Shown here piece by piece: positions 33,499-45,400 of a DNA stretch of 64,000 nt. The stretch is from Liolophura sinensis (taxonomy: Eukaryota; Mollusca; Polyplacophora; Chitonida; Chitonidae). Both the position numbers and the translations under genes were made by a program. The notes under the pieces were generated by a model, which was not told the DNA's origin, searched no databases, and saw only the letters and a program-made list of their open reading frames with translations. The stretch lies in assembly GCF_032854445.1 (NCBI RefSeq), contig NC_088300.1, positions 76,251,966-76,315,965 of the forward strand. The letters are read 5' to 3'. Positions within the stretch are counted from its first letter, which is position 1, and each line of letters begins with the position of its first letter.

Positions 33499-36400
33499 TC
33501 AGAAGCATGTTCCTGGCAGTAAAGTTGTGTTTGTTGGTTTGTTCATGATCTGTAGATGTCCCCACTTTTTGCCCACACTCAGGGATACACTCAGGGGCAC
33601 CTTCAGCTTGATCATCTTCCCACACAGCTGGTCAGCAGATTCCATCACACCTTTCACCAGATCTGCAGATAAATAGTCTACATGTACATATACATGTATG
33701 TACTGCACTTTTTCACATGTCTCTTTACATAAATATGACATGCTGAGAACTGTTTTTTGTCTAGGCTGAACTGCTAGTTTTTCTAAAAGCCTACATTTTC
33801 AGTTAGTATTGGCACAGATTAATGGAAGAAAATACAGTCACAATTCTTCACATATAATACTGCTCCAAATTCACCTAATAATTACACCAAATAATTCACA
33901 GAGTTGAGCTGAACATTGCTAGGGAACTTAAGAGCCAAAATTATCATTTACTTAATGAAGATGTTAATGCCAGGAAAGAAATTCCATATTAAATTATTAT
34001 ACAACAATGATTGGATTTATGGAGTGCAGAGAGTAAACCACTGCCCTTCCCTTTCCACATTCACACCCGAACCAGTTACATCTGAACTGTGGCCTACAAT
34101 CTCTAGTGCTCAATGATTGAGAGAAATCTAGAAAACTTTTCTAATGGAACACCCATGTATACTTCAGCTGGGTCTTCAAAACATAATTTTCAGCTGGAAC
34201 ACATCTGACTGTATAATAGACCTAAACACACCTGAGAATTCTTCCAGATTGTCATCGGGTACCTCATACAACAGCTCATCATGAATCTGTAATAACAGCC
34301 TGGTAACAGAAAGTGTAAAGAGTAATTGGGATAGCAAAAACAATTTCAGGCTTGTGTATTTTCTATACACCATGAGTTATAAGAAAAGACCACCATTATA
34401 CATGTATGAAGTAGGCACAGTGAAGGCCATTTCGTGCACATTCCAAATATAGTTTTCATGACTTTTACAGGGAATGCAAACAAGAAGATTCTCTGACCAA
34501 ACAGGCTGAAGCACAGTCACGTCATAGATTCCATACTGTTTTAACACACTTATATTTCAACATGAAATACAGATATTAGATGCAGTACAACATATACATA
34601 TACAGGGTGTCCCAAAAGTTGCGCACCATCCAGGTTGAGGTTGAATGCTTGAGCTACAGAGCGGTGTGTTGCCCCATCTCTTCCAAACATAAAAAAACAA
34701 TTCACTTTTTTCTTGTACTGTTAGTTTATTACCAATAATTAACTCTGAAAGAGAGAAAAAAATTTAAAATCAGTATTAAATTTGAAACACAGAAAAAAAA
34801 ATGAAAATCAGGACGGTGCACGACTTCTGGGACACCCTGTATATTCATGTTGAATGTGTAAATATAGAACCTCAAATTTTATTTGCATTTTATTCACAGT
34901 GAAAAAAAAGATAAAAAAATCCATATCTGGAATCAGCATTATAAGTGGCTTTATGGGCTCTTCTTTTAAACTGGTTATCCAAATCAATGTTTTGTCTCCT
35001 TCATACATGCCTGTCAGACACCAATAAACTGAAACCTGCATAAATGTATTTCATTTACCCCAATGAACACCCCCATCCCACTTCCATATCTGGATCAGCA
35101 ATATTTCACACTGATAGACAGAATTCAGACAAAGCCTTAATTTTTCTGACCCAGCTTCACAGTGACCATGTCTCTGAGCTGATGCAGATTAACTTCCAGT
35201 ATAGACCTTTCTTAACAGACATGCACTCATGAACACACATTTGACTAACCCAATACACTGGTGATAGATATCAAATTTTTATTGGATGTGATGGCATCAA
35301 ATCTGCTCTTGACAGAAAATGGAATGAGTAATTAATGTTTTTGCAAAAGAATGCACTGGTCATGCATGCACCATTTGGACAATAATGCACAAATGTTGAC
35401 ACAGGCTAGGATTCGCTGCAGGGGTTAAGTGACTTGGAGAAATGTCGCTAATAAAAGAATTGTCCCAAAACAAAAAACAAATCTGCAATACATACCTGGC
35501 TTTAAGGTGTGGCCTAAAGAGCAATGCTCGTTCAACCTGTAACATCGCTGCCTTACAGATGTCTGCTGCTGAGCCTGTCACACAGAAACACAACACACAT
35601 GAGACGTGTACTACAACACTACCACCAAATACTTCCCACACAATACCATCACTGATATAGTGGGACAATACGCAGAGTAACATGGCTGCCTTACAGATGT
35701 CTGTTACTGAGCCTGTCACACAGAGACACAACAAACACAAGACGTGTACTGCAACACCACCAAATACTTCCCACGAAATACCATCACTGATATAGTGGGA
35801 CAATAAGAGAGTAACACGAAACATCATGAAACAACAGAAAGGAATATTTGTGGTCTGCTTTACCTTGTACACAGAAATTGACCGCCTGTCTTTCTGCTTG
35901 AGCTTTCAACTTGGGAGATTTGCTAGTGATGTTAGGAATAAGTCTCCGTCGCTTGAAAACAGTACAGGTGTACCCTGCAACACAATAAACTTGTGCAAAT
36001 ACAACCAATAAATAATCAGGATTACTTCTGCTTCAGTTCATGTGTGTAAAATTTGGATTTCTATTATTAAATCAGGTTTGAACAAGAGAATTAATTATAC
36101 TTGCAATGAGAATTCTCTGCAAGAATATAACAGATACAATGTTAACATGGATGAGGATGTATTATATGCTTAAATCTTGTTTTACTGTTAATTGATCAGA
36201 TTCTATAAGACAATAGTTGAGGTATGGGAAACTTCGTAAATGCATTTGAATGCCATTGGTGAATGACAAAAGTACACAAACCATTGCTCCGACAGAAATC
36301 CGTGCACTTTTTTGTGAAAAAGTTTACTGCAGGGAATTTATCTGAAAACAAAATAACACATCAACAAGATATATATTCAAAACATTGTTTTAAAATAAAA

Positions 36401-39400
36401 AATAATCAACTACATTATTGACTGATCTTTCATGCTGGACTCTTTTCTGTTTTTATACTTGAATGAACAACCACCGAGTTCAAACACTTAGCTCCCTAAG
36501 GAAACTATCAAACTTTCCCACTAAGTGCTTGACAAGCTTTGCCAAACTGACACACAAACAACCATAATGTGATAGTGCTGGCTAAACGCTGGGCTAGTAC
36601 ATAATGTCTCACTTGTTTTCATAGTGTACGTAGACTCTTGGTTATTGATACTGTTTATGTTTTCATACATGTATAATTATTACTCTATCGTCTGTACTTC
36701 TTACCCAAAAAACTTGTAATTATAGCCTTTGCATGTGATGGCTCTATCTTCAAATATTCAGCAAGTTTTTCTTTGCCTACAAAACAAGTTTACTTGCATA
36801 TTATTCTGTATGAATTTCACTGTTATGGTTATAAGTGAATTTGTACAGTATTTCAAATACAATTATCACAGTACCATATTTCTTGTTCCACTTGTATACA
36901 TGGCAAATAATGCAATGGACATATTCAAGAATGGAAACAAGAAAAGAAAACAAATCTAACCTGCACCATACATGACGGAGTAAACTACTCGTTTTGTTTG
37001 CTCCCTCTCGGCTTGAGTCACATCACCCAAAGGCTTATCCAACCTGTTCAAAAACATCAGCTGATATGGAAATACAGCATTATACAACTTTGCTCCCGCT
37101 ATTACATGATAACTCAGTCATCAAAATGCTTGTGAGTTATAACAAAAAATGTTTTCTTTTGGTTGGGAGGGTGGGGGGAGCGCGCTCTAACTGGATGCAC
37201 ACAAAACTGCAATACATTTTCGGGCAAACCACAGAACAACATGCAGTGTGAATCTACTTGGGCAACACTGCATTCTACCAACTGCTGTAATTCTACTCAT
37301 TGCAAAACAGCACTTTTAAAAACAAAAACTAAAGCTAAGAAAAACTGTCTACAATGACTGAGAGGAGAAGTAATAAATAATTCCTATTACGAGACTAATA
37401 GATGTTTCTTAATATAATAATATGCTACCAATCAAACAACCGTAAAATATAAACCTTGCTGTTGAAGTATCATAAAAGGAATACAAATATAGTACCACTG
37501 AGATGTCAGCTCTAGGAATATATCTTCTGTCTTAGCTCCAGTGAAGATGCTGATCAGTTTGGGGTCATCAGACAAGTGTGCCAGCAGTCTTAATTCAATC
37601 TGCTGGAAATCTACACAAAAACAGAGCGGGGCTGTAACCGTGCCATGTGTGTATAAAATATTTATTGGACCTGATTGGTGTTTTATGTCGTATTCAAGAA
37701 TGTTTCAGTTTTACGACGGCAGCAAATATTATGGTGAAAGGAAAAAGGGAGAAAATCCACAATCTTCCACAGGTTGCTGGCAGACTTTTCCAGGTGCGGC
37801 CAGAGAGGATCTCATTGGTGAGAGGCTCCTGTGTCAGAGTACTGCATTGGCATGCTGGAGGTCACCGTGCCAAAGTATTTATTTATTTGATTGGTGTTTT
37901 ACACCATACTCAAGAATATTTCATCTTATAGGATGGCATTATAGTGGCTTTGTTCAGGACCATCCACAAGTTGATGGCAGACCTTTCAACAAACAGTCAG
38001 AGAGGAAACCAGCATGAGCTGGACTTGAACCCACAGTGACCGCATTGGTAACAGGCTCCTGGGCCACTGCGACGCACTGGCTTGCTAACCCCCATGCCAA
38101 AATATGATTGCAATATATGACCTTCATCTCAAATGTAACACAATAGACTGTGTTATATTAGTTTTCTAACTTATAGCTAAGAGAAACTCTGTCGGAGGAA
38201 GCAAAATGTAAGCAAAATGTTGTAAACTACTTTGACAAACTGTACCAATGACATACATGAACATGTAGCATACACTGGCATACCTGCAGCCAAGAAAGAT
38301 GCTCCCTCCACACTTATAATTGGGTCTCTAGCAAACACCGGGAGTGTTGAATCCTCATCCTTACCTTGTGAAGAAAAAGCACTTTACTGCTAAACTGAGC
38401 TTAAATTTTGTCCATGTTAATCCATGAACACTTAACCCCAGTATAACATGTAATCTGTAAGTATGAGTGAGGTGTTTTATATTTTGACATCATTGAAATG
38501 TTTTCTTCAAAATAATAGAAAACAGGGACAGAGAAGTGCTTAGGCGAAAGTTATATAACTGAAGTCTATATCTCAAATGTTACTCTCCACTCAAACTTCT
38601 AATGAACTTTAGCTTTTTTCCAACTATATTCATCAATTCACTATGAAAACATTTCCTCCTTCATTTGTCTACTTTTTTACCACTTAGTGACTGAGCCTAA
38701 ACGGTTCACCGGCTCTCTCCAAATAGATGCTAAGAACGCAAGCATACATACATGTACAAACAAACTTAATTAATAAAACAGCTGTGCCCTCTACTAGTTG
38801 AATAAAGATAGCAATGATTTCAATGACTTCACAAGTAATCAAGAATTATCACAGGTGGCATTATAGGCAGAATTCACTCTTCTTTATCAGTTTAGTCTTG
38901 CTTTCTTTAGAGGGCTGGAGAGCCCCATTACAATAGTTACCAACTATGTAGGAAGTTTTGTAGTCTGTGATGATGACAGGCTGTTTGGGGACTGACTGAA
39001 GGTTAGGCTGGTAGGAGGTGAGTCTACCAGTAGCAGCAGCAGTCTGGTCCCAGTGGGTATGGAGGTAACCTTTCTCCACACAACTTATCAGGCCATCTAC
39101 ATACGTAGACTTTAGCTTCTGCAACTGAGATTAAAACATGACAATTATACGGACTTCTGTTACAACTGGATGAGGCTGTATAAAATTGCTTTATCACACA
39201 CACGCACACACGTGACCTATTGATTAGTCTACCCGTCTATATTCCAGCACTGTAGCTGGGTGTTTTTGTTGATTAGTCTACCTGTCTATATTCCAGCACT
39301 ACAGCTGGGAGTTTCTGTCGATTAGTCTACCTGTCTATATTCCAGCACTATAGCTGGGAGTTTCTGTTGATTAGTCTACATGTCTATATTCCAGCACTAT

Positions 39401-42400
39401 AGCTGGGAGTGTCTTTTGATTAGTTTACCTGTCTATATTTCAGCACTGTCGCTGGGAGTCTCTGCTGATCAGCCTACCTGTCTATATATATTCCAGCACT
39501 ATAGCTGGGAGTTTCTGTTGATTAGTCTACATGTCTATATTCCAGCACTATAGCTGGGAGTTTCTGTTGATTAGTTTACCTGTCTATATTCCAGCACTAT
39601 AGCTGGGAGTTTCTGCTGATCAGCCTGCCTGTCTATATATATTCCAGCACTATAGTTGGGAGTTTCTGTTGGTTAGTTTACCTGTCTATATTTCAGCACT
39701 GTAGCTGGGAGTTTCTGCTGATCAGCCTACCTGTCTATATATATTCCAGCACTATAGCTGGGAGTTTCTGTTGATTAGTCTATCTGTCTATATTTCAGCA
39801 CTATAGGTGGGAGTTTCTGTTGATTAGTCTACATGTCTATATTCCAGCACTGTAGCTGGGAGTTTCTGCTGATAAGCCTACCTGTCCATATATATTCCAG
39901 CACTATAGCTGAGAGTTTCTGCGGATTAGTCTACCTGTCTATATTGCAGCACTATAGCTGGGAGTTTCTGTTGATTAGTTTACCTGTCTATATTGCAGCA
40001 CGGTAGCTGGGAGTTTCTGCTGATCAGCCTACCTGTCTACATATATTCCAGTACTATAGTTGGGAGTTTTTGTTGATTAGTCTATCTGTCTATATTCCAG
40101 CACTATAGCTGGGAGTTTCTGTTGATTAGTTTACATGTCTATATTTCGGCACTGTCGCTGAGAGTTTCTGCTGATTAGTCTACCCGTCTATATTCCAGCA
40201 CTATAACTGGGAGTTTCTGTTGATTAGTCTACATGTCTATATTCCAGCACTATAGGTGGGAGTTTCTGTTGATTAGTCTACCTGTCTATATTCCAGCACT
40301 ATAGTTGGGAGTTTCTGTTGACTAGTCTACCTGTCTATATTCCAGCACTACGGCAGGAAGTGGGTGTCCCTCTGACAGTTGGGTCAGTACGGCCTCAGAT
40401 GTTGACTTCACATGATTCACGCTTGTCATGCTGACCTTCTTCTTCATCTTGGAAATTAGATCAAGGCGCAATTCTTCAAATATCACCTATCAAGAAAATA
40501 TAATGAGGACTAATAAGTTAAAACTGATTACTACGATGGAATGCTAAGGCATAAGAAATGACAGTGTGATAGCAATACTTTGCAATCATTTTCCACATGA
40601 ATTCCTTCAAACTTACCGACTTTTAAATAATATAGGAATGAATGTTTCATAGCAGAGTTATGGAAGAGTTCATAGCAGACGTATCTATCAGAAAAGTAAT
40701 AATAGTAAAAGTAGTCAATCTATCAATGGAAAAGCCTCATTTGTTTATTTAGTGATGTAAATAAACTATAAGCAGGAATTATCAAGAAATTGGCAAAATT
40801 ACCTGTCGTAACTGAGGGTGGCTGTTAATACAAAACCAATGGCCAGCCAGGTTATGAGCCTTTTTCTCAAGCCTTGATAACTTGCTCTAACAAATTAATA
40901 GCAAACCAGATTTAAAAAAGAAGAAAAAAACATATACACAACAAAAAGCAACATAACAGAGCAGAAAGAAAGGAGTGTGGAATGAAGAATTAAGTTCTTA
41001 ATAACAAGCACTGTTATTAACACTTCCTGGTATTTACATGAACATAAGGTGTAACCCTAAAATATGAGTGTGCAGAACCCAAATGAAATTAAATGCACAT
41101 AAGCCCTGATACAAAATCTATCTATATGCACATGTCTTAGCCATGTGGCCACCTACAATACTTAGAAAGCCAAGTCAGGAAATAAGAGGTTGTTCTTTGC
41201 AGGTATGAGTAAGAAAAAAACCCAAGCTTTATGAAACAGCGAAGAATTTCGGAACTGGTATACTGTCAGAATATTTCATACACTGAACTACATGCATGCA
41301 CCGTTCGAATCAAGAGGAGACATACCTTCAAAACATCAGAAAACTTCAGAAACATATCTGCATCCACCTTCATGTGACTTTTTTCCATTTTTGCCAATAG
41401 GGGTATCAATGGAGTTTCAAGTTCAAAGAATAAAGGCCAAAGGTTCCTTGCCTTGAGCTTATGAAACAGCTGCAGCATTGTGGATCCCAAATGTTTAAAG
41501 TTTGACATCAGCGTCCCCAAGGTGGAATCTTTGTCTTCCTGAAAAAAAAAACGTGAAACTTTGATTCAGGACACTGACATAATGATCAATGAGTTCCTTA
41601 TTGACTGTTTCTTAATAATAGCCTAAGACTATTGATAACAGTGGCTGACAAAATTCATCTGGGAATATACAGTACCTATATATTTTATTGCAGTCCATGT
41701 TAGACTACCTAAAATATTTAATGGCTCATGTTTACTGGGTGTTCATGAGGGCAACACCTGAAACTACAGCAATGTAGAAGCTCACTCTGGTTTAATTAAT
41801 GGTGTTTTACAGAAAGGTGGATGTGTTCGTCATGAGATTAGGAGAGACACATGACTGATCTGCCCATAACAGTATTACGCATAGCTCTCATACACTATAT
41901 GGCATGCCCAGCATATTACCTTATTTGTTTTGAGTCCGGATTAAAACCAGCAATGAAATGAATATTTAAATAAATAATTAAAAAAAAAAAAAATTAAGTT
42001 TTATTATTTTACCGTGTTTCTGGAAGTTGTGTGAAGCAAGCCTTCAAAATTCTGAACTGGATTATCAGGGTCCAGTAACCATGATGCCACTTTGGCATCA
42101 AGGATTATCCATGATAGCACAACTGTTAAAAAAGGGTGCGCAGTAATTCATATTGTGTAGAACAGAATACATGAACATGATTCAACTGCTATTTTGTGAT
42201 ATCACATGAGAACTTATCATTAAAAAAAAATGCTTATCTTTATAATTTATAATAATTTATAATATTTTTATAATATAATTATTTATTTTTATAATATGAC
42301 AATTTATAATATCTACTATCAATACTAACGTGACTTGTAACAGGGACAACATCAATTACCTGAAAACTCAAAGTCAAAGGTATGCAGCAGGAAAAGCACA

Positions 42401-45400
42401 ACCTCTTTTGCCAGGAAAGAAACCTTCCTCACCTTACTGGACATCAACTCACGTGTAAAATCTCTGTAATTATTTACATCAACACAAGAGATGAACATTT
42501 AAACAAGAGCATTCATGCAGTCTCTAAAGGCTGTGAAACAAACCAAATATACAAAACTGAGAGAAATAGCTGAAATGAACCACATCATTGACTTAAACCA
42601 CCAATGCCATCAAGTAGGCTTCACTGTACATGTACATGTATGTATCAGCAACTGAAACTTCTGTGAGATACCGCATAGTTTACCTTGCCCATTGATACAG
42701 GTCTGTTTTCTCCTTGATTCCACCAGTTGGAATGTAAAGACAAGCAAGTGTTTGGTTCTCAGTTTCCTTTCTTGTTGCTTGTTCTGTTTTGGGGGCAATG
42801 TGGTAGTGACCTATAGCAACTCCTACAGCCTGAAAGCAGGAACAGTACCAAACATGAAGTTATATGAGCCACTATAAATAGCCACATCATGAAATGACAT
42901 GGCTTTACTAATATATCCATCATAGTCTTGACATGAAAAGCAGGGATGTTGGAAGCAAATGAAAAGAGGAGGCACCTATCTCACCCAATCACGTCCACAG
43001 AAATTTTACACAATCATTTTTCTGAACAGCACAAATACAAATGAAATATGCACCGTATATTGTGAAGTTTACGCTAACAACACATGCAAATAAACTACAC
43101 GATATTCAGTAGCTACAGTAACTGCTTTTACAGGATCAACTCATCAAAATGCATTTATGGTGTCGGATAGAAACCACAAAAGTGATATAAAGGTACTGTA
43201 CTGACTGGAAATCACTTCCATGAAAAACAAGTTCAAAAGGGCTTCTTAACATCCTGGCAGTTTTCTTGTAATCCTACTGGTATCTTAATGTAGCATATCC
43301 TAGTGTTGGTGTGTTTCATTGTACAACTGATAAATCACAAAGGGAAATTCCTATCCTACGTGATGACACAAAGTAAATTTGATATTATAAAGTTATTCAC
43401 GTTAGAAAACATGCAGGCATGGCTTCATAGACCAGTTATTTTTACTTCTTGTATTGCCTTGCTCAAACCTGAGTTGTCTGATGGCATCACATGACCTTTC
43501 AGGGGAAGATATTGCAAATTAACAAATGCCAAATTTCATGTCTTTATCGATGTTAAATATCTGACATATAAAATGTTCACTGTTAGCGAATCTTGGATTC
43601 CCTACCCCCATCTCATCCCCTTCCTGCCTAGTCCACCGAAAAGGATGTAAAAATGTGACTAATTACAGCTGGATGAGTTTCATTATCTATCTAATATACA
43701 GTGAATGTAGTTTGCTTTCAAGTGAAGCAGAAGTATTTCGTAAACAACATTCCCTCACCTTGGATTCCCTTGGTTTTTTCTGCCAGAGTTAAAAAGAAAA
43801 AAAAAACAATTAAGGTAACTCAAATTAATCAAACTTTCAAACTTTTCTATTAAGTCTCCTTAAACAACATGTGCATTCAAAAGAACACCTGGTGTGTATT
43901 AATTTTGCAGTATTCTGGGCACCTTGCCCTATACAGTTTGCAATCGATTGGAAAACCTGATTTTTCCTAAGAAATCCACGAAGTAATGATCAACCCCACT
44001 TTTCAATCTTGCTACATTTTCTGGTTCAGAGATACAAGCACACTTGTCAACAAGGTTCATACAACTTTGGGTGATGTTGGCACACTTGTCAACAAGGTTC
44101 ATACAACTCTGGGTGATGTTGGCACACTTGTCACCAAGGTCCATACAACTCTGGGTGTTGCTGGAACACTTATCAACAAGGTTCATATAACTCTAGTTCA
44201 GTGATGTCAGCACAATTGTCAACAAGGTTCACACAGCTCTGGAAGATGTTGGCACAGTTGTCAACAAGGTTCATACAACTCTAGTTCAGCGAAGCCAGCA
44301 CAATTGTCAACAAGGTTCACACAGCTATGGATGATGTTGGCACACTTGTCAACAAGGTTCATACAACTCTGAGTAATGTTGGCACACTTATCAACATAGT
44401 TCATACAACTCTGGGTGATGTTGGTACGCTTCTCAACAAGTCTCATACAATGGGCGATGTTGGCACACTTCTCAACAAGGTTCGAACAACTCTGAGTGAT
44501 AGCACACTTCTCAAAAAAGCTCATACAACTCTGAGTGATACAGACACACTTGTCAACAAGGTTCATACAATGTGTGATGTTAGAAACACTTCTCAACCAG
44601 GTTACAACTACTGATACTAGCACTGCTGAACATCTGTCAAAGGTGAGTCTTAGGAAACCAAGGAAGAACCATTAAGAGCCTTGATCAAGACCCATATCTC
44701 CCATATAAAAAAAGACAAGCTAGTAGCAATAAGGTGGAATGTAAATATACACAAAGCAATTCTTAAATTCTCAACATACTGTAAGGGATTCACAATGTCA
44801 AATACAAGCTGCTAGAGATTTCAATACATAAAATGATTAGTTTATACCTTATCATCATTTGATGAAAACAGAGTTGACCCATCCTTGAATACTAGTGTGA
44901 TGATTGCTTCTTCAGACTGAAGAAGACCATTGCCGACAGCCTTTCTGTCTTCCTTAGATATGAAGCCGATATTGACAATGTTGAGGGATTTCATCTGTAT
45001 GTCATCATCAAAACAAAACTTATCTGTGTTTGAGGTGAAGATTCCCCTTGAACATGTTGGTGGCACATGTTGATCCTTACAAAAAAATTAGTGTTCCTTA
45101 TTTGAAATGATATTTTCTGTCACACTCAAGAATTTTTCACTTATATAATGGGGGCCAGTTTTAAGTGACAGCAGTAAACCATCAATCATTGGTGTGTAAC
45201 AGGTGAACTTGTGTGTGCCATCTACAGCTAAGAACTTCATGCAAAACCACAGAAAAGAGCACCGTCAACCACTTATAACAACCAAAGTCTCAAGAACTTG
45301 AAGCATCAAATATTACGGTAATTGATGATAAGGGAGCGTAGCCAAAAATCGTGAGCGTTTCAAATTTGAAGTTTCAAGATTGGGAACCATTGATTCTTGA

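Follow-up and report, generated by a model that had tools for sequence, protein, structure and literature searches.

In lancelets, minisatellite-like tandem duplications of exon/intron boundaries, known as mirages, have been described in Adh3, in the globins BflGb6 and BflGb9, in TnC and in PGBD5 (PMC3087553, PMC3902484). Either the donor or the acceptor side of the intron may be affected, AG/GT is present in many of the copies, and normal splicing seems, by RT-PCR, to proceed undisturbed (PMC3087553, PMC3902484); they have also been proposed as possible intron seeds (PMC3087553). Unstable copy number, between haplotypes or in somatic cells, is a further attribute of mirages. Introns may likewise be gained by tandem duplication of a sequence with AG/GT (the Rogers model), for which potato RdRp is given as an example (PMC4974935). 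Here, we describe an array in the POLN gene of a mollusc, which is a further case of a mirage, outside the group in which the term was coined. The literature searched contained no earlier case of junction minisatellites in molluscs, or of such minisatellites as decoys.

Molluscan markers identify the host. Haemocyanin domains of the molluscan type gave eight matches in one cluster (best E 3.3e-41), and COX1 follows the invertebrate mitochondrial code. A lancelet genome was considered and found unsupported, the markers being molluscan instead, and a search for lancelet-type GFP, run without a positive control, gave no match in the genome. Occurrence in cephalochordates, which belongs to the history of the term and not to the anatomy of the repeat, is an attribute of mirages that this locus lacks. 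On a separate contig (G000:C99), seven COX1 matches lie ~15.5 kb apart, and the mitochondrial genome has apparently been assembled there as head-to-tail copies.

Within the window, i.e., the whole 64-kb stretch of DNA that was analysed, the exon bearing the authentic 5' splice site lies on the minus strand at 40331-40486 (VIFEELRL...HPLPAVVLEYRQ), and the following exon (LQKLKSTYVDGLISCVEKG...) on the same strand at 38900-39127, its 3' end being approximate; both were assigned by alignment to Pol nu. When joined, the two exons align without gaps to human Pol nu (4xvi, E 3.7e-27), with the junction residues EYRQ/LQKLKST here against EYRQVHKIKST in the human protein. This gapless alignment identifies the gene as POLN and the coding donor as CAG/GTAGAC (40325-40333, minus strand, +1 base at 40330), whose predicted U1 duplex is -8.0 kcal/mol. 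From the conservation of the protein, we infer that this first donor is the one actually spliced.

Tandem Repeats Finder places the minisatellite at 39220-40350 (period 49, 22.7 copies, 85% matches, ~1.13 kb). Split on the minus strand, it resolves into 23 units, 18 of them close to 49 bp and five lengthened to 53 bp by an additional ATAT, and the units are partly arranged in higher-order blocks of about three. The array starts within exon 40486-40331 and then occupies most of the following intron, the non-repeat remainder of which (39128-39219, minus strand) holds the acceptor (TTTTAATCTCAG/TTGCAG), outside the array. As in mirages, the 49-bp unit spans the boundary, comprising ~31 nt of exon and ~18 nt of intron. 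A whole-genome DNA search with the array matched at this locus only, a single assembled copy, subject to the search tool's caveat on repeats. These results bear out the preliminary description, which had placed about 22 units repeating the exon end and its donor directly on the POLN exon.

The repeat unit is of exonic origin. The unit consensus reproduces the last 20 nt of the exon exactly and is homologous to it over ~31 nt with 27 matches, a value reached in any register by none of 20,000 shuffled units (best 20). The identity on which the earlier reading stood or fell is therefore well above chance, and its proposal that a junction-spanning unit was amplified into the intron agrees with the 27/31 exonic match and the intronic part of the unit; its statement that the exon's last bases are repeated was right as far as it went, the exonic portion being longer than was noted. 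Upstream of the donor, the unit consensus reads A CTC CCA GCT ATA GTG CTG GAA TAT AGA CAG (LPAIVLEYRQ) and the exon end A CTT CCT GCC GTA GTG CTG GAA TAT AGA CAG (LPAVVLEYRQ). Of the four differences, three are synonymous and one exchanges V for I, human Pol nu likewise having I (LPKIILEYRQ); this hints at a synonymous bias, which with n = 4 is suggestive and, taken alone, not a strong test. Since human Pol nu conserves the peptide, the array must have been copied from the exon and not the reverse. The intronic portion of the unit contains in-frame stops and was therefore intron before the amplification, so that a pre-existing junction was copied.

Between 39232 and 40281 on the minus strand, the copied donors comprise 12 CAG/GT, 5 CAT/GT, 2 CGG/GT, 1 CAG/GC and 2 CAG/AT. 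CAG/GT is thus present in 13 units when the real donor is counted, and, as in mirages, many but not all units keep AG/GT. The estimate of about a dozen kept donors was accurate, about half of the 22 intronic copies looking competent, whereas the claim that every unit offers a competing donor goes too far, three copies being without GT. The genome's U1 RNA has an ordinary 5' end (ATACTTACCTG), and all 12 intronic CAG/GT copies are predicted to pair with U1 as strongly as the authentic donor or more so; for eight of them the pairing is slightly or clearly better, and four (CAG/GTAGGC) reach -10.7. The U1 snRNA genes themselves form a long tandem cluster (G000:C10:30033968-30140539) with a repeat of ~1.97 kb in more than 30 near-identical copies.

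We modelled splicing from 14 downstream donors, and all gave one and the same product, ...LEYRQVD*, since the intron opens with the codons GTA GAC TAG (40322-40330, minus strand). With the same stop following from any decoy, the array cannot diversify the protein and could only reduce output. As in mirages, it is the outermost copy that forms the authentic junction: the first donor gives the normal Pol nu frame and the other modelled donors truncate it. As to the suggestion that decoys might extend the exon, modelled use of the competent-looking donors gives only a premature stop. With decoys near the acceptor, the remaining intron would be far shorter (105-350 nt vs 1203 nt), and, given this and the predicted U1 pairing, some aberrant splicing at the array is plausible.

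It is conceivable, if improbable, that the copied donors form a functional field of decoys, sequestering U1 or diverting splicing to a dead-end transcript, with copy number tuning POLN output. The 12 CAG/GT copies with U1 pairing at least equal to that of the authentic donor, and the premature stop common to all decoys, fit such a role. Against it, 10 of the 22 copies are weakened or lost, the donor columns stand out from the other columns of the unit neither by conservation nor by depletion, and comparable lancelet repeats have been reported without disturbance of splicing (PMC3087553, PMC3902484). Specifically, the nine donor columns of the 49 took seven of 41 parsimony changes (P 0.60), neither an enrichment nor a depletion, and the RNA of the array folds no better than shuffled sequences (z +1.31). 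There is no pointer to selection for or against the donor copies, and the buffering or regulatory role raised in the preliminary description has left no sign, the donor positions evolving like the remainder of the unit.

Overall, the array is very probably a minisatellite of the mirage type whose extra donors are neutral by-products, rarely or never used. A short tandem duplication across the POLN exon/intron junction, taking in ~31 nt of exon and ~18 nt of intron, may have been followed by expansion, partly in blocks of about three units, through unequal exchange or slippage. The outermost copy would have stayed attached to the intact exon, and splicing from the first donor would discard all extra copies with the intron; occasional use of a decoy would give a truncated and probably degraded transcript. 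The array would be tolerated because of this geometry, in which first-donor splicing leaves the protein unchanged. More generally, a tandem copy wholly within an exon would alter the protein, and a copy spanning a donor or an acceptor would leave with the intron if splicing takes the outermost signal.

Junction arrays were then sought over 264 kb, i.e., the 64-kb window plus 200 kb upstream, with a simple screen for arrays that adjoin an open exon bearing a splice signal, three of the exons being confirmed by Pfam. Minisatellites are abundant in the surveyed DNA (54 arrays, 9.4% of the 264 kb). SEPSECS (Pfam E 4.4e-7) has a donor-side array of 3 x 39 bp (L021:5975-6093, C6:76147975-76148093), in which the exon end ACAG/GTGAGC is copied to give three strong donors. 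MRPS26 (E 4.5e-6) has one of 13 x 70 bp (L022:5015-5927, C6:76157015-76157927) that begins at the exon donor and holds 11 exact copies of AG/GTGTGTAACAGG. At CDC50/TMEM30 (E 1e-14) the array, of 7.9 x 80 bp, is on the acceptor side (L012:6380-7009, C6:76058380-76059009), with copied acceptors and their pyrimidine tracts. A further donor-side array of 4 x 47 bp (L028:7233-7425, C6:76219233-76219425), with copied donor-like GTATGT sites, adjoins an open exon without family assignment (..EENWPPQDYLIS). The real exon always stands with the outermost copy (donor side in POLN, SEPSECS and MRPS26, acceptor side in CDC50), as would be expected if such copies are spliced out. Thus the structure, first regarded as unusual, belongs to a published class, and at least three further genes in the 264 kb surveyed have it as well.

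By this rough count, four border-spanning arrays are confirmed, or five with the orphan exon, against 1.3-2.7 of 54 expected by chance, an expectation that assumes 0.5-1 exon border per kb. Depending on the border density assumed, the P value of the excess goes from 0.28 down to 0.012. The frequency of junction arrays is accordingly at or slightly above chance on a rough count, and a bias towards junctions, although conceivable, is not claimed.

Two additional repeats lie in the POLN region of the window. A two-copy junction repeat crosses a POLN acceptor at 35500-35760 (minus strand), reading ...TGTGTGACAG/GCTCAGTAACAGACATCTGTAAGGCAGCCATG and then ...TGTGTGACAG/GCTCAGCAGCAGACATCTGTAAGGCAGCGATG (GSVTDICKAAM and GSAADICKAAM); its extra copy is open throughout, and retention would add roughly 40 residues in frame. 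Upstream, a 42-bp minisatellite at 44037-44603 would translate on the minus strand, without a stop, into a repeat of 14 residues (MNLVDKCANITQSC). The SEPSECS copies are also in frame and stop-free, and use of their donors would add 13 or 26 residues (ELLIKVYTSSTTG).

A broader regulatory reading would make the POLN array a brake dependent on copy number, in which the stronger copied donors compete with the weak authentic site and part of the transcript is lost to decay; junction arrays elsewhere in this genome would likewise modulate or diversify the products of the genes that carry them, SEPSECS in in-frame steps of 13 residues. We regard this reading as decidedly unlikely. Less is to be said for the idea that the intron arose through tandem duplication of exonic AG/GT sequence as in the Rogers model. 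The unit does consist of exon plus AG/GT, the POLQ gene of the same genome is intronless at the homologous place (HPLPGLLLEWRRISSAVTK, single frame), and mirages have been proposed as intron seeds. However, in-frame stops interrupt the intronic portion of the unit, which also lacks a match to the next exon, and the acceptor lies outside the array; an intron gained by AG/GT duplication has two coding copies and takes its acceptor from the second, neither of which applies here. The stops and the position of the acceptor led us to reject this route for the POLN intron, which leaves it a very slim chance. Long arrays are prone to misassembly and the genome is rich in repeats, but a chance resemblance, a transposon fragment or an assembly artefact is barely credible, given that none of the shuffled units matched the exon as well, that the units differ among themselves (85% matches), unlike artefactual stutter, and that the genome-wide search, within the tool's repeat caveat, found this place only.

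With the POLN array read as a mirage, splice-junction mirages are now placed in a mollusc, several per 264 kb, which suggests that they are no peculiarity of lancelets but arise generally where tandem duplication acts on a minisatellite-rich genome. Such loci are natural experiments, presenting the spliceosome with rows of near-identical splice sites among which the right one has to be chosen. Should the copied donors be in use, the length of the repeat would act as a heritable dial on gene output.

Human IFI6 (6-16, G1P3) is said, by title, to contain a minisatellite providing multiple splice donors (NAR 1995, 23:1854). To the extent that this title conveys, IFI6 and the POLN array have in common minisatellite units with donor sites; they differ in that the IFI6 copies would be used as donors, whereas use of a POLN copy is modelled to run into an immediate stop. 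Intron gain of the Rogers type, as represented by the potato example (PMC4974935), likewise involves tandem duplication with a splice signal, but at POLN an existing junction was copied and no new intron arose. The closest likeness is to the lancelet mirages, with which the POLN array shares tandem copies derived from a boundary, many AG/GT units, an outermost copy that is the real junction, and blockwise turnover of units. It differs from them in its host, a mollusc, in its gene, POLN, and in its dimensions (23 units of 49 bp).
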